Positions 5,402-44,079 of a stretch of DNA of 64,000 bases are shown here, in pieces. The notes under the pieces were generated by a model. It saw only the letters and a program-made list of their open reading frames with translations, ran no database searches and was not told the DNA's origin. The stretch is from contig NC_134678.1 in the NCBI RefSeq assembly GCF_024713945.1, positions 1,426,001-1,490,000 of the forward strand. Reading direction: 5' to 3'. This DNA comes from Dermatophagoides farinae (Eukaryota; Arthropoda; Arachnida; Sarcoptiformes; Pyroglyphidae). Both the position numbers and the translations under genes were made by a program. The stretch's first letter is position 1. Each line of letters opens with the position of its first letter.

Positions 5402-6329
5402 TTGTTTGTTTATTTCTTTCCCAGGAAATTATTTACAACAATTTGATTATAACCAGAAATTGTAACATGATTCGATGATGGCTTGAGCAATTTTTCTGAT
5501 TGAATTATTGATTGATTTTTTTTCTGTTTGGCAAATTATGATGATAATTATACACCTGATCAATGTGTTTTTGGTTTATGAATATCAGAAAAAAATTAGG
5601 TGGTGATGTTTGGCACGTATTCGACAAAATCATTCACAAGGTTTATCATCATAACATAAAAATAAACAGTTCCAGAATTGGAAAACAGCACTGGAACAAA
5701 ACAAAACAAAAAAATCAAAGAGATTCATCCGAAAGTAAGACAAGACTACGAATGACGACGAAAATCACGAATGAAATGAAAAAAAAAGTCAGCACCAAAG
5801 AAACGAGAGTGCGAAGAAAAAAAAACGAAACTCTTTGAACATGGCCAATGAGAAGAATATTTTTGCGCGCGCGAGGTTCCAAAAATAAAAATGTGATGTC
5901 TGTTCTGTTTTTTTTTCTTTCTTTCTTTCTGATTGACTCTGAATTCAAGAATCTATGTGGGCCCATCGTCATCATCATCATCATCATCAACATTCTGGTA
6001 TGTTTATGTGTGCGTACTGGAATGGTTTTTTCCTTTTTCAACAACAACAACAACAACGATGCCTAACACAGATTTTGCTATATCTATCTATCTATCTATC
6101 TATCTATATGGGTGTTGTGCGTTGTTGGTTTGTTTTTTTTCTGCTATTTATGTTCCCATCATAATAATCACATGGTACTTTAATTCACCAATTTGGACTT
6201 TGAATGTTTTGGGGCAGAAAATTCTTGAATTTTTTTTTCATTTCATTGGTTGTAGATTTTATGGACAAGGGTATTCAATATTCATTTATATATTATATAT
6301 ACTCTATTTATGTCAGTAATGACTTGTTG
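5402..6329. other. Intergenic region between GPCR gene and secreted gene trio
   Basis: About 0.9 kb with no convincing gene. It should hold the promoter and 5' UTR of the GPCR (leftward). Visible structure: a (CAT)n tract at 5969-5990, (CAA)n at 6040-6056 and a (TATC)n tract at about 6080-6107. Apparent reading frames here are translations of these repeats. Confidence 0.5.
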
Positions 6330-6575
6330 TTAAAAATTTATTTAACATATTGAAAAAGTTGACCGAAAAAATGAAAAAAAAATCAAATCACACACACACA
6401 CACATTTATTGACTTTTAATCATCATCAATAAATTCGTATTTATATTGTCTGAGTGAAAGGAAATTTTTTTTTTTTTTTTTGGCAGTCATCACATCACAG
6501 AAAGCTTTGTTTTTTCAAGTTTAAAACTTGATTAACATATGAAAATAAAAGGATTTTTCAATTTTTTTTTCGACA

Positions 6576-6585
6576 TATATAAAAA
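6576..6585 (+). promoter_or_regulatory. TATA box of secreted-family copy 1
   Basis: TATATAAAAA lies about 90 bp upstream of the start codon at 6673. The same box, followed by a conserved TTCTGTTTTCATTGTGCT segment about 25 bp downstream (probable transcription start region), occurs before all three family members, which supports it as the core promoter. Confidence 0.7.
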
Positions 6586-6672
6586 GCATTTTCAACGTTT
6601 GTTCTGTTTTCATTGTGCTTGGTGATTGATTTTTTTTATTCATCAATCTTGTAATCATCATATTCATTCAAA

Positions 6673-7698
6673 ATGATTTCCATATCATCATCTCTATCTC
6701 TATTATTTTTTATTCTGTTTACTTCATCATCATCATTGATTCAATGTCGATCAATATTTTCTGAACAACAGGAACAATTTTTATCGGAAATATTTCCACC
6801 AGAAATGGTCAATGTTCAACAAATAGCCGAAATGGCAATGAATCCTGGTGCAATGTCTAATCATACATTGATTGATTTGTTTACACAAGCCAATGATATT
6901 GTTAATTCAACCGGTGCTGATAGTGTTTTATTGCAAATTGATAATTCAGACAAGAATAATAACAACAGTATCAAAGTATTGGCCGTTGCTAAACCAGATG
7001 TTCCAAGCCATGAAGATTTAATGAAAAAATTTAATCTTTATTTTGTAAATTTAACTGAAAGTCCACTTTCATTTATCAATGATGATCATCATACGAAAAC
7101 AATGTCAACAACATCCAAACCTATTCCATATAGTCATCGAACTTATTGGCAGATATTTGTCGATTTTCTACGTAATCAAGCTAATGCTGTAATTGGTGCC
7201 ATGATGATACCGATTAATGTTAGTATGAATGCAATACAAAAATCAACCCAAACACATGCTGAATATGTTATGGCTGGATCATCATTAGGTTCAGTAATAT
7301 CAGCACCGGTTATATTGAAATCAATTTCAATACCGAATATATTATCACAACATATTGTCGATGTGGCATCAAATCAAGTGAATAATCTTGAAACATTTAA
7401 TGAACAAACAAAATTAATGGCTGATAATGGTATAAAAACTTTTGCCAATGGTCTGAATAATGGTACACAAATTGTATCGAATGTTACCTCACATTATGTT
7501 ATTCGTCCTATTGGTGCATTTACTGGATTCAATTTAAATCGTACTGGTCATCATATTAATAATATTGGACAATCATTTGCCAATACTGGACTTAATATTC
7601 ATTTATTTGGTGAACGTGTTGGTTCGAATGCCGAAAAATTGGTTAGTGCTGGTGCCACGGCTATCGTTTGGGGCTTGGATAACACTGTTAAATTTTGA
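6673..7698 (+). CDS. Secreted cysteine-free glycoprotein, copy 1 (unknown family)
   Basis: I do not recognise this protein. It has 341 residues and no intron. Residues 1-26 form a typical signal peptide (Ser/Leu/Phe-rich core, probable cleavage near LIQC/RS). The mature chain has no cysteine and many N-glycosylation sequons (NHT, NST, NNS, NLT, NVS, NGT, NVT, NRT), so secretion through the ER is likely. The middle part (about 155-215) is hydrophobic/amphipathic. The C-terminal 90 residues are rich in Gly and Asn spaced every 6-9 residues (NGLNNGT, GAFTGFNLNRTG, NIGQSF, NTGLNIHLFG), which suggests a repetitive amphipathic structure, and it ends in WGLDNTVKF. Two paralogues follow at 8563 and 11593. 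A TATA box is at 6576 and an AATAAA signal at 7935. A duplicated, intronless, strongly TATA-driven secreted gene suggests high tissue-specific expression, but no function can be assigned. Confidence 0.85.
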   Translation: MISISSSLSLLFFILFTSSSSLIQCRSIFSEQQEQFLSEIFPPEMVNVQQIAEMAMNPGAMSNHTLIDLFTQANDIVNSTGADSVLLQIDNSDKNNNNSIKVLAVAKPDVPSHEDLMKKFNLYFVNLTESPLSFINDDHHTKTMSTTSKPIPYSHRTYWQIFVDFLRNQANAVIGAMMIPINVSMNAIQKSTQTHAEYVMAGSSLGSVISAPVILKSISIPNILSQHIVDVASNQVNNLETFNEQTKLMADNGIKTFANGLNNGTQIVSNVTSHYVIRPIGAFTGFNLNRTGHHINNIGQSFANTGLNIHLFGERVGSNAEKLVSAGATAIVWGLDNTVKF

Positions 7699-7934
7699 CC
7701 ATCACGCACTTCATAAGAGTTCATCTGAGAGTAAAAAAAAATGACCAAAATTAAGAAAATCAATCAGCCAAATTATCAGACTTATCATTTGTCTATAATT
7801 TTTTTTTTATATTGTTGATGTCATCTTTGTTCGTTTTTTTTTGTTTAAAATTTTTCCACACTACATTCACTTGTCATTATTTTTGTTTATGAAATTTTTT
7901 CATTCTTTTATGTGTTTTTGTTCGGAATGTGATA

Positions 7935-7940
7935 AATAAA
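7935..7940 (+). terminator. Polyadenylation signal, secreted-family copy 1
   Basis: AATAAA about 240 bp after the stop codon, in a block (GATAAATAAATTATA) conserved 3' of all three family members. The equivalents are at 9813-9818 (+) and 10364-10369 (-). Confidence 0.6.
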
Positions 7941-8440
7941 TTATACCATGTTTAAAAAAAATGACGATAAAAAAATGTTTCCGGAATAAATGTATTTAAT
8001 TTATTGTTGTCATCATTATTTAATGATGATGTTGATAATGTGACAATAATGATGATAATCTAATATAACCACCACACACATAACCTATATCTATTTTTTT
8101 TCACTACGAAAAAAATATTTGTTCATCATCATCATCATCATCGTCATCAATAACGTGTAAGGTTTTTGAATGATACTTGGTAACAAGTATTTGCTGACCT
8201 AAACAGAGTAGCAGATTTAACAGGTGATAACAACATCATACGATTTGTGAAATGATGAATCTCAGCAAAATAATGTGTACATCACTAACTCAGCAATAGT
8301 TTCCATAAATAATATTTAGATAATTTTAGTATATAATCCCAACCAAAAATCCTAACCAAATCATGTTATGTTTTTACATTACGTTTTGATTACAACCTCA
8401 AATAAATTATTATTTAACAACGTTTATCCAGAAGAGAGTT

Positions 8441-8473
8441 TATGACAGTTTGTCATAATATTATATATAAAAA
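8441..8473 (+). promoter_or_regulatory. TATA box and upstream palindrome, secreted-family copy 2
   Basis: TATATAAAAA at 8464-8473 matches the other copies. Immediately upstream is a perfect inverted repeat, TATGACA-GTT-TGTCATA at 8441-8457, absent from the promoters of copies 1 and 3. Upstream sequence of copy 2 is otherwise unrelated to theirs, so its regulation may differ. Confidence 0.6.
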
Positions 8474-10030
8474 GGATTTTCAATGTTTGTTCTGTTTTCA
8501 TTGTGCTTGTGATTGATTTTTTTTATTGTTCATCAATTTTATCATCATCATATTCATTGAAAATGATTTCCATATCATCATCGCTATTATTGTTTTTTCT
8601 GTTCACTACTTCATCATTGATTCAATGTCGATCAATATTTTCCGAACAACAAGAACAATTTTTATCGGAAATATTTCCACCAGAAATGGTCAATGTTCCA
8701 CAAATAGCCGAAATGGCAATGAATCCTGGTGCAATGTCTAATCATACATTGATGGAATTGTTTACAAACGCCAATGATATTGTTAATTCAACCGGTGCTG
8801 ATAGTGTTTTATTGGAAATTGATGATCATGCAAACAAGAATAATAACAACAGTATCAAAGTCTTGGCCGTTGCTAAACCAGATGTTCCAAGCCATGAAGA
8901 TTTAATGAAAAAATTTAATCTTTATTTTGTAAATTTTACTGAAAGTCCAATTTCATTTATCAATGATGATCATCATACGAAAACAGTGTCAACAACATCC
9001 AAACCTATTCCATATAGTCAGCAAACTTATTGGCAGATATTTGTCGATTTTCTACGTAATCAAGCTAATGCTGTAATTGGTGCCATGATGATACCGATTA
9101 ATGTTAGTATGAATGCAATACAAAAATCAACCCAAACACATGCTGAATATGTTATGGCTGGATCATCATTAGGTTCAGTAATATCAGCACCGGTTATATT
9201 GAAATCGATTTCAATACCGAATATAATATCACAACATATTGTCGATGTTGCATCAAATCAAGTGAATAATCTTGAAACATTTAATGAACAAACAAAATTA
9301 ATGGCTGATAATGGTATAAAAACTTTTGCCAATGGTCTGAATAATGGTACACAAATTGTATCGAATGTTACCTCACATTATGTTATCCGTCCTATTGGCG
9401 CATTTACTGGATTCAATTTAAATCGTACTGGTCATCATATCAATAATATTGGACAATCATTTGCCAATACTGGACTTAATATTCATTTATTTGGTGAACG
9501 TGTTGGTTCGAATGCCGAAAAATTGGTTAGTGCTGGTGCCACGGCTATTGTTTGGGGCTTGGATAATACTGTTAAATTTTGACCATCACGCACGTCTTAA
9601 AAGTTCATCAGCGAGTAAAAACAAATGACCAAAATTAAGAATCAATCAGCCAAATTATCAGACTTATCATTTGTCTATAATTTTTTTTTTTATATTGTTG
9701 ATGTCATCTTTGTTCGTTTTTTTTCGTTTATAATTTTTCCACACTACATTCACTTGTCATTATTTTTGTTTATGGAATTCTTTCATGTGTTTTTTTTTCA
9801 TCAAATGTGATAAATAAATTATACCATGTTTAAAAAAAAATGACGATAAAGAAATGTTTCCGGAATAAATGTATTTAATTTATTGTTGTCATCATTATTT
9901 AATGATGATGATGATGATGATGATGTGGCAATAATGATGATAATCTAATATAACCACCACACACATAACCTATATCTATTTTTTTTCACTACGAAAAAAA
10001 ATATTTGTTCATCATCATCATCGTCATCAA
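8458..10030 (+). repeat. Tandem duplication unit 2
   Basis: Second copy of the block at about 6560-8155, from the TATA box through the gene to the same CATCATCATCGTCATCAATAA tract. Homology stops abruptly on both sides. Confidence 0.8.
8563..9582 (+). CDS. Secreted cysteine-free glycoprotein, copy 2
   Basis: Paralogue of the gene at 6673, in direct orientation; 339 residues from the Met homologous to that of copy 1. An in-frame Met 20 codons upstream (8503) lies beyond the conserved start and close to the presumed transcription start, so it was not chosen. Signal peptide, sequons and the WGLDNTVKF end are all kept. By eye I count roughly fifteen amino-acid differences from copy 1, nearly all in the first half (for example Gln to Pro in NVQQ/NVPQ, and LLQIDNSD/LLEIDDHAN). 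The last 180 residues differ at a single Leu/Ile position. This gradient points to recent duplication or gene conversion of the 3' half. An AATAAA signal is at 9813. Confidence 0.85.
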   Translation: MISISSSLLLFFLFTTSSLIQCRSIFSEQQEQFLSEIFPPEMVNVPQIAEMAMNPGAMSNHTLMELFTNANDIVNSTGADSVLLEIDDHANKNNNNSIKVLAVAKPDVPSHEDLMKKFNLYFVNFTESPISFINDDHHTKTVSTTSKPIPYSQQTYWQIFVDFLRNQANAVIGAMMIPINVSMNAIQKSTQTHAEYVMAGSSLGSVISAPVILKSISIPNIISQHIVDVASNQVNNLETFNEQTKLMADNGIKTFANGLNNGTQIVSNVTSHYVIRPIGAFTGFNLNRTGHHINNIGQSFANTGLNIHLFGERVGSNAEKLVSAGATAIVWGLDNTVKF

Positions 10031-10609
10031 TAAAATTCTGGGTGCTGATGATGATAATATTTGCCATTGGGCAAACTAATCATCATCATTACACGCATGT
10101 ATATAGGAGATGATGATGTATACGAAATTCTTCGATGATAATGACGAGATATATTTTTTTCATGTTCGAAATTTTTTCGTTAAAATAATTGCCATTCATT
10201 TATTTTTTCCAGAATAGGAAACAGAATTTTTTTTTTGGTTTGTTTCACACGTTCGTACAGAATTGCTGAAATTTCTATATCTGTTAATATAAATGGATAT
10301 CATGACAAGTTTTTAAATATGAAAAAAATAATTTTAATTTCCAGTAACAAGCCTTAGTTATAATTTATTTATCACATTCGGAAAAAAAACATAAAAGAAA
10401 AAATTCCTTAAACAAAAAAATAATGACAAATGTTCAGAATGTGAATGTAGTGTGAAAAAAATTATAAACATCAAACGAAAAAAAAACAAAGATGACATCA
10501 ACAATATAAAAAAAATTATAGACAAATGATAAGTCTGATAATATGGCTGATTGATTCTTAATTTTGGTCATTTTTTTCATCTGATTAACTTTTAAGACGT
10601 GAGAGATGG

Positions 10610-11593
10610 TCAAAATTTAACAGTATTATCCAAGCCCCAAGCAATAGCTGTGGCACCAGCACTAACCAATTTTTCGGCATTCGAACCAACATGTTCACCA
10701 GATAAATGAATATTAAGTCCAGTATTGGCAATTGATTTTCCAATATTATTGATAAGATGACCAGTACGATTTAAATTGAATCCAGTAAATGCACCAATAG
10801 GACGTATAACATAATGTGAGGTAACATTCGATACAATTTTTGTACCATTATTCAGGCCATTGGCAAGAGTTTTTATGCCATTATCAGCCATTAATTTTGT
10901 TTGCTCATTAAATGTTTCAAGATTATTCATTTGATTTGATGCTATATCGACAATATGTTGTGATATTTTGTTCGGTATAGAAATTACTTTCAGTATAACC
11001 GGTGCTGATATTACTGAACCTAATGGTGATTCAGACAAAACATATTCAGCATGTGTTTCAGCAGCTTTTAGTGCAGCATTCATACCAACATTAACCGGTA
11101 TCATCATAGCACCAAGTAAAGCATTAGCTTGATTACGTAGAAAATCGACAAATATCTGCCAATAAGTTCGACGATTATATGAAATAGGTTTAGATGTTTT
11201 TGTATGATGATTATTATTGATAAATGAAAGTGGACTTTCAGTTAAATTTACAAAATAAAGATTAAATTTTTTCATTAAATCTTCTTGTTTCGGAATATCT
11301 GATTTAGCAACGGCCAATACTTTAATACTGTTATTATTATTCTTGTTTGCATGATCATCAATTTCCAATAAAACACTATCAGCACCGGTTGAATTAACAA
11401 TAGCATTGGCGTGTGTAAACAATTCCATCAATGTATGATTAGCCATTTTGGCTATTCGTGAAACATTAATCCTTTCTGGTGGAAATATTTGCGGTAAAAT
11501 TTGTTCCTGTTGTGCGGACAATATTGAACGACATTGAATCAATGATGAAGTAGTGAACAGAAGAAACAACGATAGATATGATATGGAAATCAT
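10610..11593 (-). CDS. Secreted cysteine-free glycoprotein, copy 3 (inverted)
   Basis: Third paralogue, on the opposite strand; 327 residues from the Met homologous to copy 1 (the reading frame continues 70 codons upstream through the promoter, which is not taken as coding). It is the most diverged copy. It lacks seven residues (MNPGAMS) before NHTLMELF and about four before SKPISYN, and has changes such as INVSRIAKMA, GMNAALKAAETH and ESPLGSV. The signal peptide (ISYLSLFLLFTTSSLIQC), cysteine-free mature chain, most sequons and the WGLDNTVKF end are kept, and there are no stops or frameshifts, so it looks functional. Its distal 5' flank resembles that of copy 1. Function unknown. Confidence 0.85.
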   Translation of the reverse strand: MISISYLSLFLLFTTSSLIQCRSILSAQQEQILPQIFPPERINVSRIAKMANHTLMELFTHANAIVNSTGADSVLLEIDDHANKNNNNSIKVLAVAKSDIPKQEDLMKKFNLYFVNLTESPLSFINNNHHTKTSKPISYNRRTYWQIFVDFLRNQANALLGAMMIPVNVGMNAALKAAETHAEYVLSESPLGSVISAPVILKVISIPNKISQHIVDIASNQMNNLETFNEQTKLMADNGIKTLANGLNNGTKIVSNVTSHYVIRPIGAFTGFNLNRTGHLINNIGKSIANTGLNIHLSGEHVGSNAEKLVSAGATAIAWGLDNTVKF

Positions 11594-11682
11594 TTTCAAT
11601 GAATATGATGCTGATGTTGATAACATTGATGGATTAAAATCAATCACGAGCACAATGAAAACAGAATAAACATTGAAAATCC

Positions 11683-11692
11683 TTTTTATATA
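11683..11692 (-). promoter_or_regulatory. TATA box of secreted-family copy 3
   Basis: Reverse complement of TATATAAAAA, about 90 bp upstream of the start at 11593 and followed by the conserved TTCTGTTTTCATTGTGCT segment, as in copies 1 and 2. Confidence 0.65.
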
Positions 11693-11875
11693 TGTCGAAA
11701 AAAATTCATGTTCAAATTCTAAACTTAAAAAAACAAAGCTTTCTGTGATGTGATGAGCGTAAAAAAAAAATTTCATTTCACTTGAGCAATATAAATGTGA
11801 CAAGAATTGGCGAAAATACGAATTGATGACGATTAAAACGTGATTTGATTTTTTTCATTTTTCCGGCAAAGTTTT

Positions 11876-12939
11876 TCAATATGTTATAAATTTTTGACAA
11901 TTTTTTGCAATCAAATCATATGTTAATTGATAATAATAATAAAGTTGACGTTGTTTAGCGTATAAATCATAGAAAATTTGTCTCATACCAATGGAAAAAT
12001 GTGTTTGATAATCAATTAGATGTGGATTACGTTGCATTTTAACAATCATATGAAATCTATTGTGTAGAGAGGATTGAAAATTTGAAAATGCTATAATAAT
12101 AAAAATAATGAAAATGAATAATTAATGACATGTTGAGATTTTTCAATATTCACATTACCTTGAATAGAATGGGCAAATTCTTCAACCATATCTCGGCAAT
12201 AATCTTTTGTTTCAATGTCAATCATTTGTTGTGAATGTTGTGGTGCATTGGAAATTTTATTATTAACGGTAAACATTGATGGTCGACATAATTGTATGGA
12301 TCGTATGAATGAATCGGACCAATCTAGGTAGAAATCTTCATATTTTTGTAATGATTCAAGTATGGCCATTAAATCTTTATCAGAATCAATATAACCATTG
12401 TATGTGAGAAATAATGGCAAATGATGATAATTATAATTACAATATTGTTGTTGTTGTTGTTTGAGATTTTTTTCATCATCAACATTATAATCATTTAACA
12501 TGTGGCCATCATTTGCTTTAGGTTGTTGTTTAGAATTTTGATTAAGCAAAAACATTTTTGACATTTTTGTTGCCTTCGATATGGTCATCATAGTGATCGT
12601 AGAATGATGATCGTTTTCCAAATCTGTTTCAGATTGATGACAGTTGTTGTTGGTGTGGTAATAATCACCACATCTACTATGGTGATCATCAATCATTGCT
12701 TTCAATTCACGTATATTTTGTGGAAACTGTTCAAATAATAATCTAAATGGTTTGATAATATAGTGAAAACGTAATTTTGTAATTTTTGGTGAACCACAAA
12801 TGTTCAGGCGAAAATTATATAGCCCACCACCATTATAACGATCAACAGGTTTTGAACGATTCATTTTCTTTTTCTTTTCATCATCTTCATTGGTTCGATT
12901 CATTTTTTTTCGATACGATACGATTTCCAGTGATATCAT
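11876..12939 (-). CDS. Unrecognised two-exon protein
   Basis: I do not recognise this gene. Exon 1 is 12159-12939 and exon 2 is 11876-12090, joined by a 68-bp GT-AG intron that closes in phase (SIQ-GAFSNFQ), giving 331 residues and a TGA stop. The product is soluble-looking, with no signal peptide or membrane segment. A basic N-terminus (residues 1-32) is followed by NGGGLYNFRLNICGSPKITK, a helical-looking FRLLFEQFPQNIRELKAMID, a low-complexity His/Asn/Gln centre, and a better-structured C-terminal half (LESLQKYEDFYLDWSDSF, DMVEEFAHSIQG, MRQIFYDLYAKQRQLYYYY). The last two segments look like amphipathic helices. The gene ends just upstream of the inverted secreted-family copy, and its last codons lie at the limit of the sequence shared by the flanks of copies 1 and 3. 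The start at 12939 is the first Met; Met 13 or Met 26 are alternatives. Confidence 0.65.
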
Positions 12940-25061: not shown

Positions 25062-26648
25062 TCATGGCAACTCGGTAATTATTCGCATTGTATTTGTATA
25101 ACCGGAACCTTGACGCCAACCGGTTATCAATACAACTGAATCTCCAGCTTGAATGAAACCACGTTTTCGTCCATATTTGATGCCAAACTCGATCCTAGCA
25201 TCCATATCGTTTGTCCATTCTTCTTTACGTGGTTGAGTATAATGAATCGGTAATAATCCACGGAAAAGATGAGCCTGTTGTGTAACTTGTTGATTTCTTG
25301 AAATAGCAATTATTGGACATCTTGGTCGATATTTAGCCACTGTATATGCACTTTGTCCGCTCGATGTAATGACAATTATGGCTGATGCTTCAACTTTTAA
25401 TGATGCACAAACAGCTGCAATAGCTGTTGCTGTAGTTGCATTTGTTGGTGGTGGTGTCATATAATCAAGTTCATGGAAAAGATTTCTTGAATGTATGGCC
25501 ACTTCAGCTTCCAAACAAATACGATGCATCATTTGTACAGATTCCACTGGATAATTACCTTTAGCCGATTCTCCAGATAACATGACACAATCTGATCCAT
25601 CCAATACAGCGTTGGCTACATCCGATACTTCAGCACGTGTTGGTCGTGGTTTTTTAATCATACTTTCCAACATATGTGTTGCACAAATTACCGATTTACC
25701 GGCAATATTACATTTGGCAATCATCATCTTATGTGCTAGAAGAACTTTTTCCGGTTCAATTTCAATACCAAGATCACCACGTGCAACCATTATTCCATCA
25801 CTAACATCGATAATTTCATCAATATTCTTAACACCTTCATGATTTTCAATTTTCGATATAATCTTTATGGTTTCACCACCATGTTTTTTAAGAAAATTAC
25901 GTATAACTTTAACACCATCAGCATTTCGTATGAATGAAGCGAAAACAATATCAACATTTTGTTCAATACCAAATAGAAGATCTTTTTCATCCTTTTCGGA
26001 TAACGCTGGTAAATCTACCGATGTTCCAGGCAAATTAACACCTTTATTCGAACCAACCAAACCACCATTCTCTACTAAACATTCGAGATAATCTGTTCCT
26101 TTTTCTTTCACCATCAATGAAATAAGTCCATCATCTATGAATACTTTACTACCAATAGCCACAACGTTAACCATATTTTTGTAATCAACAAACAATATTT
26201 TCGATGATCCACGTTCACGGTAAGCATCATCCACTGTTATACGAATCATTTGATTTTTAATCAATTCCACTTCAGCAGTTGGACCATTTTCCAGTAAACC
26301 GGTACGAATTTCTGGTCCTTTCGTATCCAAAGCAATAGCAACTGGTAAAAATTGTTCATCATAATCAGCGGCAGCTATTTTCACTGCTTTACGTACATTT
26401 TCAATTAATTCACTATGAAAATCATATGTACCATGTGAGAAATTTAAACGAGCAATATTCATTCCAGAACGAATCATTTGGGCTAACGTATCGACATTTT
26501 TCGATGCTGGACCAATCGTACAGATGATACCGGTCAAACGTTCATATGGTACTTTAACATCAATATCCAATGAACTTAGATGATCAAGCATATAATTAGT
26601 ATCTTTATCTTTACGATATTTACTCTTACTTCTTTTCAAACTTGACAT
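25062..26648 (-). CDS. PyK: Pyruvate kinase
   Basis: Last step of glycolysis: phosphoenolpyruvate plus ADP to pyruvate plus ATP, in the cytosol. 528 residues in a single exon. Visible: IICTIGPAS and [11 protein letters not shown] (substrate and K+ site), [11 protein letters not shown], the B-domain, [10 protein letters not shown] with the catalytic Lys, [28 protein letters not shown] and [10 protein letters not shown], then the C-domain ending in [20 protein letters not shown]. Length and domain order are normal for animal PK. Two departures from the usual signatures are His for Gln in CATQML and Ser/Asn in the GETAKGDYP motif. The absence of introns contrasts with most neighbours. The start Met opens a basic KRSKSKYRK segment. 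Confidence 0.97.
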
Positions 26649-39253: not shown

Positions 39254-41205
39254 TCAATCTAAATATTTATATTCATGTTCAGATGATTCTTGAAAATATT
39301 TTCCAATCACAGGTATTTTCTGATGAAAACGAACGCCCAACACGGTTAAAAAACATGCATTCTGTAAAAATAATAAACAAAAAATTCCAAATCATGTTGA
39401 TTTGTTTATTGATGAATGAATGATTGTTTCACTTTATACTACTTACCAGATAAAGAATGAATATCAAATAGAATGAGCCAAATAAAATCGATACTGGTAC
39501 TGTAATGTATGAATAATGTCCAGATTTATCAACAATCAATTGTATAGCGAAATAAATATTGACAACAATAACAACAATCGATAATGTTGTTGCAATAATA
39601 AGATTGAATAAATTATTCACAAATTTTCCCATTACCATTATGGATGATGAAAATGTTAATGTTGGAAGTATAGCGAATGGTAATTGTATGACCATCAATG
39701 CATTAAGATAATCATTCATTCCGGTTAAACTTTGTACATTGGAAAATATTGTTACTAAAAATGTTGGTGCAATAGCTATACTACGAGTAAGTAATACTCG
39801 TTTCCAACGTGGCCATTTAAGATTAAGAAAACCTTCCATTGCAAATTGTCCAGCATATGTTCCGGTCATTGTTGATGATTGTCCAGCAGCCAATATACCA
39901 ATTGCCCATATATAGTATGGTAATTCACCAAATTGACATCCAAGAAATATACCAGCCTGATAAAGATCGGCAACAAATGTTCGATTATCATTGGATAATA
40001 CATTCATATCGATAAATCTTTTGGATTTTTGTCGTTCACAAACTTCATAAACATCGTGATTTGTTTTTCCATAAAGTCCTTTAGCGAAAACAGAAATGAC
40101 AGCCATATTGATCAATAATGAAATAAACAGTACAATGGCCGATTCGATTGCAATATAACGATTTGCATCTTTTGTTTCCAGTCGTTTCCGATTGTTTACT
40201 TTCCTAGATTTAACCAATGCTGAATGTAGATAAAGATTGTGTGGCTGTATTATGGCACCAACAATTCCTACAGCCTGTAATAATGCATCCTTACTACAAC
40301 CTTTACAATATGGTAATGCTGAACCCGTTGCTATGCCTCCAATATCCGGTCGTACGACGAAAAATTCATATCCAAAAGTAACTATGAAGAAGAAGAAAAA
40401 AAATGTGATCATTATTTATAAAATTTAATTCAATTACCAGCCATGATTGTAATCAAAAATCCAAAAAATGCTTCCAATTTTCGTACACCAAATTTATCCA
40501 GAAATAAAAATGAAAATGTATCAAGAATTGTGATAAGAACACCAGCCCACAATGGTAACAATCGATTAGTGAGCATATAAAGTGCTAATGCTGTACCGAT
40601 AACTTCTTGCATATCCGATCCAATAATAGCGATTTCAGTCATTATCCATAGTAATAATCTTGGTAGTTTATGATAACGTGAATAACATAATTCAGCCAAA
40701 TGTTTTCCAGTTACAACACCAATTCTAGCCGATAATATCTGTATCAATAGTCCTAGTATTGTTGACCAAAGTAGTATCCAAAGTAATTTATAGCCAGCAA
40801 TAACACCACATTGCATGTCCGATTCAATATTACCCGGATCAAGATAGGCTATCGACATTAAAAGACCAGGTCCAATGAATGACCATAATCGTTTCCATTT
40901 AAATGAATACTAATATAATCATCATGATATCAAAATAAGGAATTTATGTTTTCAGAATCAGATCAACTTACATCATTATCCACACATTCAGGTATGTTCA
41001 CTTCGGATTGAAAATATGTATCCAATTCTTCGGGACCATTTTTGATGATTTCCACACAATCATTATTCGTCGCATTTGTTTCCGATGATACTACTGTATT
41101 GTTTGTTTGTGTTTGTAATCAGATTTTTTTTTAAAAAAAAACGAAACAAAACAAAAATGATTAATTGTGAAAATAACAACGGCCAATTCACAAACTTTGT
41201 TTCAT
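39254..41205 (-). CDS. NRAMP-family divalent metal transporter, copy A (TM6 Gln variant)
   Basis: SLC11/NRAMP membrane transporter, normally a proton-coupled Fe2+/Mn2+ importer. Exons: 41196-41205 (10 nt, tentative), 40972-41093, 40438-40909, 39447-40381 and 39254-39361, in phase, 548 residues with about 11-12 membrane segments. TM1 has the metal-binding [10 protein letters not shown]. The TM6 signature reads [19 protein letters not shown]: Gln replaces the metal-coordinating Met of the canonical MPHN. The rest matches family blocks ([57 protein letters not shown]). The last three coding exons have exactly the same lengths (472, 935, 108) as in the neighbouring copy B, proof of tandem duplication. 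The reading frame is intact, so the Gln change is in an apparently functional gene. The N-terminal micro-exon is the least certain part. Confidence 0.88.
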
Positions 41206-41951
41206 CTTCTCATCAACTATATCGCCAAACAACGATGATGATGTTCGATTCAATTGGTTGACGAAAAAAAACATCAGTGTGATAATTTTAAAAAAAAATC
41301 TACCCCTTTAAATATCAAATTATTTTTAATTTCATATATGTCAACAAACAGCTAAGAGGTAGTATAGAGATGGGCACAGAGTAAGATGGGCACAAAACTA
41401 CCAATTATTTATATTGATCCTTGTTTTTTTCTTTTAATTTTTTGATTTTGACATTTTTCTTATCTCAATTTTCTTTTGTTGTTGTTGTTTTATAAACAAT
41501 CAATCAATCAATTAATTATGATCAACATTCTATATGGATTCTATTCCCAGATCAACAATTAAATCGTCATCATCATCATCATCATCACTCGGTTATCAGT
41601 CATAGAATATAACGATATTTTGTCAGTTTATTACTCCGGGTTTTTATTGTTTAAATAAAACGGATTTTCATTTTTCAAAAAAAAAAAATCAATCAATTTT
41701 TATTATTTCGTACATCACAATTTATTGTTTTAGAATTAAGACGAAAAAAGAATCAATTTCATATCTGGATTTTTGTTTTTTTTTCCATCACATGTTTAAT
41801 AATTAGATTTGAAAAAAAAAATTTATTTTTGATAAACACATACAATGACAAATGATCTAAAATTTCTAATTTTGAGATCTTTATAGCATCAAATAGATAT
41901 TTTGTTTGTTTGTCTGTTTTTTTAATTAGAAATTTTTTCCAATCACTATCA
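41206..41951. other. Spacer between the two NRAMP genes
   Basis: About 750 bp without coding signals, presumably the 3' UTR of copy B and the promoter/5' UTR of copy A. A near-duplicate pair GATGGGCACAGA/GATGGGCACAAA occurs at 41369-41395, and a (CAT)n tract at 41568-41588. Confidence 0.4.
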
Positions 41952-44079
41952 TTAATCAATGTATTTATATTCATATTTTTCAGGTTCATTAAAATATCGA
42001 CCAATTATCGGTATTCGTTCATGGAAACGTACACCAAGTACGCTTAGGAAGCAGCCAATCTATTTCAATATTTATGGAGCGAAATTTTAAAAATTTCAAT
42101 CAAAACGAAAATCAAATAATATAAATTACCAGATAAATGATGAATGAAATATATAAAATGCCCAAAATGATCGTTATTGGATAAAGAATTGGTCCATTTT
42201 GTTTCGTTGAATTATCGATGGTAAGCTGTATGGTTGAATAGATATTAATGGCAATCACAACGAATGATAATAATGTGGCAACGATTAGATTGAATAAATT
42301 ATTAACAAATTTTCCCATCACTAATTTTGACGATGAAAATGTCAACGTTGGAAGTACAGCGAATGGTAATTGTATGACCATCAATGCATTCAGATAATCA
42401 TTCATTCCGGTCAATTCTTTTATATCGGAAAATATTGTTACAGCTAATGTTGGTGCGATTGCAATGCTACGTGTCAACAATGTACGTTTCCATCGTGGCC
42501 ATTGAAGATTAAGAAAACCTTCCATTGCAAATTGTCCAGAATATGTTCCGGTCATTGTTGATGATTGTCCTGCGGCCAATATACCAACTGCCCATATGTA
42601 GAATGGTAAAGCACCGAATTGACAGCCAAGAAATATACCAGCCTGATAAAGATCAGCCTCAAATGTTTTGTTATCATTTTCCAATATATCCATGTTAACA
42701 AATTTATCACTACGATTTGAACATAATTTCCATATATCGGCATTTGTTTTTCCAGATAATCCATGTGCAAACACTGATGTTACAGCCAAATTGATAAGAA
42801 ATGAAACAAACAATGCAATACTTGATTCAATCAATATATAACGATTTGCGTCTTTTGCTTCCAATCGTTTCCGATTATCAACATTTCGTGATTTAACCAA
42901 TGCTGAATGTAGATAAAGATTATGTGGCATAATAATGGCACCAACAATACCAACAGCTTGTAATAGCACATCTTTATCGCAATCTTTACAATATGGAAGT
43001 GCCATTCCTAAACCAATTTTTCCAGCATCCGGTTTTGCACGAACAAATTCATAGCCAAATGTCACTGACGGTCATCATTAATTGATTTAATAATTGAACC
43101 AAATGAAAAACAAAAAAAAAAAAAAACAAAATTTACATACTTGCCATAATTGCAATAAGGAAAGCAAAAAAAGTTTCCAATTTTCGAAGACCATATTTAT
43201 CTAGAAATAAAAATGTAACCGTATCAAGAATGGTAAGCAAAACACCTGCCCATAATGGTAACCATCTATTGGTGAGCATATAAAGTGCTAATGCTGTACC
43301 GATAACTTCTTGCATATCTGATCCAATAATAGCGATTTCAGTCATTATCCACAGCAATAATCTTGGCATTTTATGATAACGTGAATAACATAATTCAGCC
43401 AAATGTTTTCCGGTTACAACACCCATACGTGCCGATAATATTTGCATCAATAATCCAAGAATAGTTGAATAAAGTAATACCCAAAGTAAACGATAATTAG
43501 CAATGACACCTGTTTGCATATCGGATTCAATATTTCCAGGATCTAGATATGCAATAGACATCAGGAAACCAGGTCCGGTAAATGCCCATAATTTTCGCCA
43601 ACTAAATGAATACTTGATACAAATGGTAATTTGTTGAAATCTTGAATTATTCTTTTTTTTTCTACTAATAGAATAGACTATATATACTATAGACTTACAT
43701 CTCCAAATTGATCATGTGGAATGTTTACTTTATTATTAAAATAAGTATTCAATTCCATTTCTTCATTCTGTATGGCTGCATCACTGATCGAATATCTTGA
43801 TTCTTGATAAGAAACAAATGATAGAAAAAAAACGTTAACATTTAAAATAAATAAACTTTCTAAATAGAATTTTTTTTTATCAACTTTTTGTCATGATGAA
43901 TCAATGATGTGTATTGTAGATTATCGATTGGAAAAAAACTGGCAAAAAAAATTACAATTGATTGATGATGGATCAAAAAAACAATTGTTCATTACGTTGT
44001 CATATCCAAATGATGAATGAGGATTGTTTTTTGATCTTGGATTAATTGTTATTGATTACCTTGATGATGATTGCATCAT
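41952..44079 (-). CDS. NRAMP-family divalent metal transporter, copy B (canonical)
   Basis: Tandem paralogue of the gene at 39254. Exons: 44060-44079, 43699-43795, 43141-43612, 42130-43064 and 41952-42059, in phase, 543 residues. The motifs are canonical: [10 protein letters not shown] in TM1 and [19 protein letters not shown] in TM6 with the metal-binding Met and both His. This makes it the likely orthologue of DMT1/Malvolio-type iron/manganese transporters in endosomal or plasma membranes. The extracellular loop between TM7 and TM8 carries sequon NKT, and the cytosolic C-terminus ends EKYEYKYID. Introns sit at the same codons as in copy A. The N-terminus ([20 protein letters not shown]) is short and variable, as in the family. 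Copies A and B are about 750 bp apart. Confidence 0.93.

Follow-up and report, generated by a model that had tools for sequence, protein, structure and literature searches.

Near one end of a 64,000-nucleotide stretch of the Dermatophagoides farinae genome lie three similar open frames that had been taken, from the sequence alone, for a family of secreted glycoproteins, and the locus raises the question of whether they are genuine genes, whether they belong to any known family, and what their products might do. The stretch, called the window here, is C2:1426001-1490000 of a genome of 62.4 Mb in 22 contigs. An ML-family stretch encoded in this genome agrees with Der f 2 at 107 of 108 residues and gives a lower score against Der p 2, so that the source is D. 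farinae or an extremely close relative. We conclude that the three frames belong to a real, small family, undescribed in the searches made and ordinary in kind for this mite group until its expression or function is known. Judged by sequence similarity, five coding genes at three loci are one family of proteins of about 330-342 residues, with a hydrophobic leader and a cysteine-free mature chain.

Three protein-coding genes

The preliminary description of the window had reported three intact genes for secreted-type proteins of 327-341 residues, two direct and one inverted. This is borne out by the frames, their coordinates and their lengths:

6673-7698, plus strand: copy 1, uninterrupted single-exon frame, leader-bearing protein of 341 amino acids
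8563-9582, plus strand: copy 2, uninterrupted single-exon frame, 339 amino acids, 95% identity to copy 1
10610-11593, minus strand: copy 3, inverted, uninterrupted single-exon frame, 327 amino acids, 82% identity to copy 1

The intronless status of the copies is read from the open frames and not from RNA. Gaps in the coding region are in multiples of three in every case across the three copy pairs (3/3, 5/5 and 3/3, giving 11/11 in total), whereas gaps in the flanks seldom are (1/6, 1/7, 1/7 and 1/9, or 4/29 over four comparisons). The ratio of nonsynonymous to synonymous divergence (dN/dS) among the three pairs is 0.37, 0.62 and 0.56, and dN equalled or exceeded dS in 0, 10 and 7 of 300 bootstraps, respectively; the pairs have common branches, so that neither the gap counts nor the dN/dS counts are independent. 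Because coding gaps come in multiples of three, flank gaps seldom do, and dN is below dS, copies 1-3 are protein-coding genes, kept by purifying but fairly loose selection. The constraint on them looks weaker than that on a tandem pair of NRAMP genes in the same window (dN/dS 0.30), a loose comparison in view of the greater age of the NRAMP pair (dS 0.70). The final 71 codons carry five synonymous changes and no amino-acid change between copies 1 and 2, and the C-terminal end is thus the most constrained part of these two proteins.

The proteins of copies 1-3 are rich in Asn, Ser and Thr, and all three end in WGLDNTVKF. Their sole cysteine lies at residue 25, 22 or 21, where the hydrophobic leader ends, and none follows, in agreement with the proposed cysteine-free mature chain; the proposed signal peptide is likewise seen, by hydropathy rather than SignalP. 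The figure of about eight N-glycosylation sequons also stands as a count (8 in each copy), although it does not exceed what composition predicts: shuffled mature chains hold 4.9-5.4 +/- 2 sequons, and 10-14% of them attain 8. Being at chance for the composition, the sequon number lends no weight to N-glycosylation.

Duplication of the locus

The copies are embedded in larger repeated units, which are as follows:

6575-8142, plus strand: duplicated unit of copy 1, matching 8463-10028 at 94%
8463-10028, plus strand: duplicated unit of copy 2, partner of 6575-8142
11900-10359, minus strand: inverted duplicated unit of copy 3, matching 6327-7945 at 82%
7935-7940, plus strand: copy 1 AATAAA, identified by eye; the 3' flank that holds it is common to all three copies

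The outer ends of this inverted match (6327-7945 against 11900-10359) agree with the span of 6330..11905 first assigned to the family. Homology between copies 1 and 2 runs from a TATA-like word to about 200 nt beyond the poly(A) region; since it includes these flanks, it was DNA that was copied and not mRNA. The window copies arose through local DNA duplication, with one copy inverted.

Promoter region and expression

Each copy had been said to carry the same TATA box and start-region motif, from which strong tissue-specific expression was proposed. The elements are present in all three copies, with the start motif of copy 3 differing at two positions:

6576-6621, plus strand: TATA-like word and 24-base start-region motif of copy 1
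8464-8509, plus strand: TATA-like word and start-region motif of copy 2, the start motif like that of copy 1
11692-11647, minus strand: TATA-like word and start-region motif of copy 3, the start motif with 2 mismatches

The three copies have these elements in common because their flanks were duplicated along with them. An exact scan of the genome for the TATA-plus-start arrangement found copies 1 and 2 only (copy 3 has mismatches), and by eye the upstream regions of the two distant paralogs described below contain no such motif. TATAWAAR occurs in the window at chance frequency (48 occurrences versus 42 +/- 8 in shuffles), and upstream of the ATG of a single-exon pyruvate kinase gene, also in the window, a TATATAAAAA word stands at 88-97 nt, the same position as in copy 1. 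Codon adaptation is 0.56-0.58 for copies 1-3 and 0.62 and 0.52 for the paralogs on contigs C9 and C1. Ten genes or exons serving as background range over 0.50-0.60, an NPC2-like gene stands at 0.71, and EF1A, EF2 and Der f 2 reach 0.74-0.77; the yardstick was EF1A plus EF2, both named by eye, so that the highest values are partly high by definition. Codon usage in the family appears ordinary and, as a proxy, argues against very strong expression. With the motif inherited in duplicated flanks, the TATA word at chance and codon usage ordinary, the proposal of strong tissue-specific expression is left unsupported.

Two distant paralogs

The family had been described as having three copies. That number is right for the window, but the genome holds at least five members, two distant paralogs having been overlooked. 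A whole-genome search with four family proteins as queries returned copies 1-3 and two members on other contigs, making five members at three loci; exons were searched singly, so that the counts are lower bounds and members split by many introns could escape. The two paralogs are:

C9:2795316-2796308: C9 member, 331 amino acids, best whole-genome E 1.3e-8
C1:7366703-7367632: C1 member, open frame of 310 amino acids that ends early, best whole-genome E 1.3e-7

They are 25-29% identical to the window copies. Smith-Waterman comparison of copies 1 and 3 with each paralog, after removal of the first 22 residues, gave z = 20.7-24.7 (300 shuffles each). Blocks common to the family include (A/T)DS(V/I)L, a stretch containing Trp with RN after it, and RxIxAFxG with G...L further on. 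All five members retain the sequon that copy 1 carries at N63, and all have a hydrophobic leader. The WGLDNTVKF ending was found in neither paralog. The C1 member has a predicted 89-nt intron with GTATGT...CAG ends in phase 0 (L005 725-936), and this splice would add 40 codons, bring the protein to 342 residues and eliminate its only cysteine. A cysteine-free mature chain thus depends on the predicted splice in the C1 member and on the leader cut site in the C9 member. The predicted intron is close to the 3' end of the C1 gene, and neither the window copies nor the C9 paralog are interrupted at that position. Two results weigh against so simple a grouping: the C9 and C1 paralogs compare with each other at z of only 5.9, and as queries neither matches the other at E <= 1, their link passing through the window copies.

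Other, weak genome matches were set aside. L012, L017, L018 and L034 are of low complexity or have no gene-like frame, and the frames at L033 resemble exons of another gene, presumably one of the CAPS/Munc13 type.

Searches for known families

The preliminary description could place the proteins in no known family, and our searches of Pfam, NCBIfam, PDB and PHROGs, which gave no significant match, agree. The Pfam scan of the five proteins (E <= 10) returned nothing above a curated cut-off, the NCBIfam scan (five proteins, E <= 10) gave only matches far below one, and the PDB sequences (five single proteins, E <= 10) gave a best E of 0.25. In PHROGs, where the queries were copies 1 and 3 together with the two paralogs (E <= 1), the best E was 0.049. 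The Pfam scan of the C1 member covered the unspliced 310-residue frame, and the database searches covered that frame or exon 1, without exon 2. The best Pfam score, 14.8 bits, was that of copy 1 to glycoside hydrolase family 115 (PF15979), where copy 2 scored 14.1 bits and the cut-off is 27; copy 3 and both paralogs did not match PF15979, and the assignment was rejected. The ML family, which includes the mite group 2 allergens (PF02221), was unlisted for all five proteins at E <= 10. Scans of prokaryotic and viral collections, which do not bear on other arthropods, confirmed no relatives there. A literature search with six peptide strings of the window proteins returned no paper, and no title or opening of an abstract returned by keyword searches described the family.

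A profile built from the five members matched three related herpesvirus glycoprotein L chains among the PDB sequences at positions 195-299 (best E 0.011). We read this match as chance because no single protein repeats it.

A possible lipid-surface role for the window proteins

In the C-terminal half of all three window copies, hydrophobicity peaks at 98 degrees per residue, a height attained by 0, 0 and 2 of 1000 shuffles. This angle corresponds to a period of 11/3 residues, that of 11-residue amphipathic helices. The N-terminal halves of the C9 and C1 paralogs have a helical period (0.003 and 0.024 of shuffles, respectively). Two low-confidence AlphaFold models for the window copies agree on the order of elements in the N-terminal half: helix, beta-hairpin, then more helices. 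In none of the five proteins does an internal repeat between the halves rise above shuffles (0.10-0.71 of 300 reach it).

These features suggest how the proteins might work. Judged by its leader, the family protein would be secreted, and it may be N-glycosylated and non-enzymatic. A folded domain of helix and beta-hairpin would make up its N-terminal half, and the C-terminal half of the window copies would form amphipathic helices with hydrophobicity every 11/3 residues. Such helices could lie on lipid or another hydrophobic surface (surface lipid, a secretion or lipid from food), or could serve to bind a hydrophobic ligand. Going beyond the leader, our preferred mechanism, tentative as it is, would be a glycoprotein that is secreted, has no enzymatic activity and, in the window copies, lies with its C-terminal half on lipid or another hydrophobic surface. 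That the family is a novel fold restricted to astigmatid mites, a cysteine-free secreted glycoprotein of which the window branch gained a lipid-coating C-terminal half with the amphipathic 11/3 period, seems very improbable. If the proposal is correct, the family is of sufficient age for its five members to be spread over three contigs, in branches only 25-29% identical, and the mite protein, being excreted and glycosylated, might in addition be an allergen that has gone unrecognised.

Several observations count against a lipid-surface role. The C-terminal halves of the paralogs are without the amphipathic signal (0.71 of shuffles attain the peak of the C9 member and 0.10 that of the C1 member), and it cannot therefore be a function common to the family. 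The period was tested on 15 stretches, uncorrected, and the window copies are near duplicates that amount to about one observation. A period of 11/3 fits soluble helical bundles too, no lipid-protein profile matches, and the sequon number, as noted, is at chance. The AlphaFold models have mean predicted local distance difference test (pLDDT) scores of 31.6 (full length, the three window copies) and 42.6 (residues 60-200), too low to use, and the full-length model also has short strands in the C-terminal half.

Alternative explanations

The proteins might instead belong to a known secreted family from which they have diverged so far that the similarity in sequence is lost. The searches rested on the proteins of one species, and a mite profile from many species might tell; both AlphaFold models are too poor for a fold search; and the five-member profile did reach E 0.011 to glycoprotein L, a match itself taken as chance and unrepeated by single proteins. 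No one family is indicated, the best Pfam score falling at 14.8 bits against a cut-off of 27, and we regard such an origin as possible but doubtful.

A structural or matrix protein of the cuticle, peritrophic membrane or egg shell, like the hypothetical cuticular proteins of mites, would suit a leader-bearing, cysteine-free chain rich in Asn, Ser and Thr, and orphan groups of D. pteronyssinus are classed as hypothetical cuticular proteins (PMC12105342). We nevertheless consider this unlikely: neither a chitin-binding family nor any other Pfam family matched over its cut-off, the AAP(A/V/L) motif is found in none of the five proteins, only five genes were found, and long-range sequence order is kept between the window copies and the paralogs.

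The genes might also encode a secreted product of reproductive or gland origin (seminal, oviduct or salivary), evolving rapidly through local duplication. In keeping with this are the local duplication itself, with dN/dS of 0.37-0.62 against 0.30 in the NRAMP pair, and an account of many poorly matched genes expressed in D. pteronyssinus males (PMC12105342). Relaxed constraint, however, commonly raises dN/dS in young copies, and the comparison is a loose one with an older pair (dS 0.70 for NRAMP); between window copies and paralogs dN is about 0.8-0.9, too diverged for a rate to be obtained. A secretion of this kind seems improbable.

Convergent in orientation, copies 2 and 3 together make up an interrupted inverted repeat (8463-11693) of five arm pairs, 70-93% complementary, the innermost arms being 535 nt apart, and read-through of it would yield a long hairpin RNA. 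The mite is reported to silence transposable elements via a plant-like small interfering RNA (siRNA) pathway (PMC5886382). That copies 2 and 3 are mainly such a repeat, whose read-through transcript gives siRNAs, is scarcely credible: the five complementary arm pairs and their spacing would allow it, and one report finds D. farinae small RNA coverage at mRNAs higher at 3' ends, suggestive of siRNAs from cis-natural antisense transcripts (PMC5805368), but three open frames, in-frame indels and dN below dS are unneeded for a hairpin source.

Neighboring genes and significance

Other genes of the window were also noted. The single-exon pyruvate kinase lies at 25062-26648 and encodes 528 amino acids with both Pfam domains; pyruvate kinase matches occur at four genome loci, and the barrel domain is unbroken in 25062-26648 and in C21:60333-61310. 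Two adjoining NRAMP-type frames on the minus strand at 39432-43065 are probably a tandem gene pair. The open frame at 4073-5401 matches rhodopsin-type receptors solely over its last part (residues 378-441 of 442), which is preceded by a very long stretch of low complexity; the frame is probably the initial coding exon of a receptor whose N-terminus is unusually long.

According to one study, 47% of D. farinae genic transcripts are similar to Sarcoptes, Drosophila or conserved-domain sets (PMC5805368), and, since only 47% have such similarity, orphan families are ordinary in such mites. For D. pteronyssinus, another study gives 3,906 predicted proteins without a BLASTp alignment, 1,848 of them also without homologs in related species (PMC6493757). 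Secreted, glycosylated proteins of house dust mites are candidates for human exposure, and the present family is small enough for gene-by-gene tests.

Comparison with known mite proteins and lipid-surface proteins

Mite protein families of unknown role include a group of membrane proteins with a four-bladed propeller, expressed in males (PMC12105342). DFP1 (UniProt A1KXC1), a D. farinae protein, is listed in a table of exosome proteins (PMC10434197); it is likened to the present family by description only. DFP2 is also a mite multigene family of unknown role, compared here by description. It has 32 genes in D. pteronyssinus, where its products are classed as hypothetical cuticular proteins (PMC12105342), and 81 in Psoroptes ovis (PMC6806590). 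The present family, with five genes in the genome as a lower bound, does not match these large numbers. On very high expression, the other trait considered for DFP2, codon adaptation serves only as a proxy; the window copies are background-like at 0.56-0.58, against 0.74-0.77 for EF1A, EF2 and Der f 2.

Amphipathic proteins that act at lipid surfaces include those of the apolipoprotein and perilipin types. Unlike them, the present family has a predicted N-terminal mixed domain, shows no sequence match to them, and lacks the amphipathic signal in the C-terminal halves of the C9 and C1 members. What the C-terminal halves of all three window copies have in common with these proteins, by analogy only, is the period of 11/3 residues.

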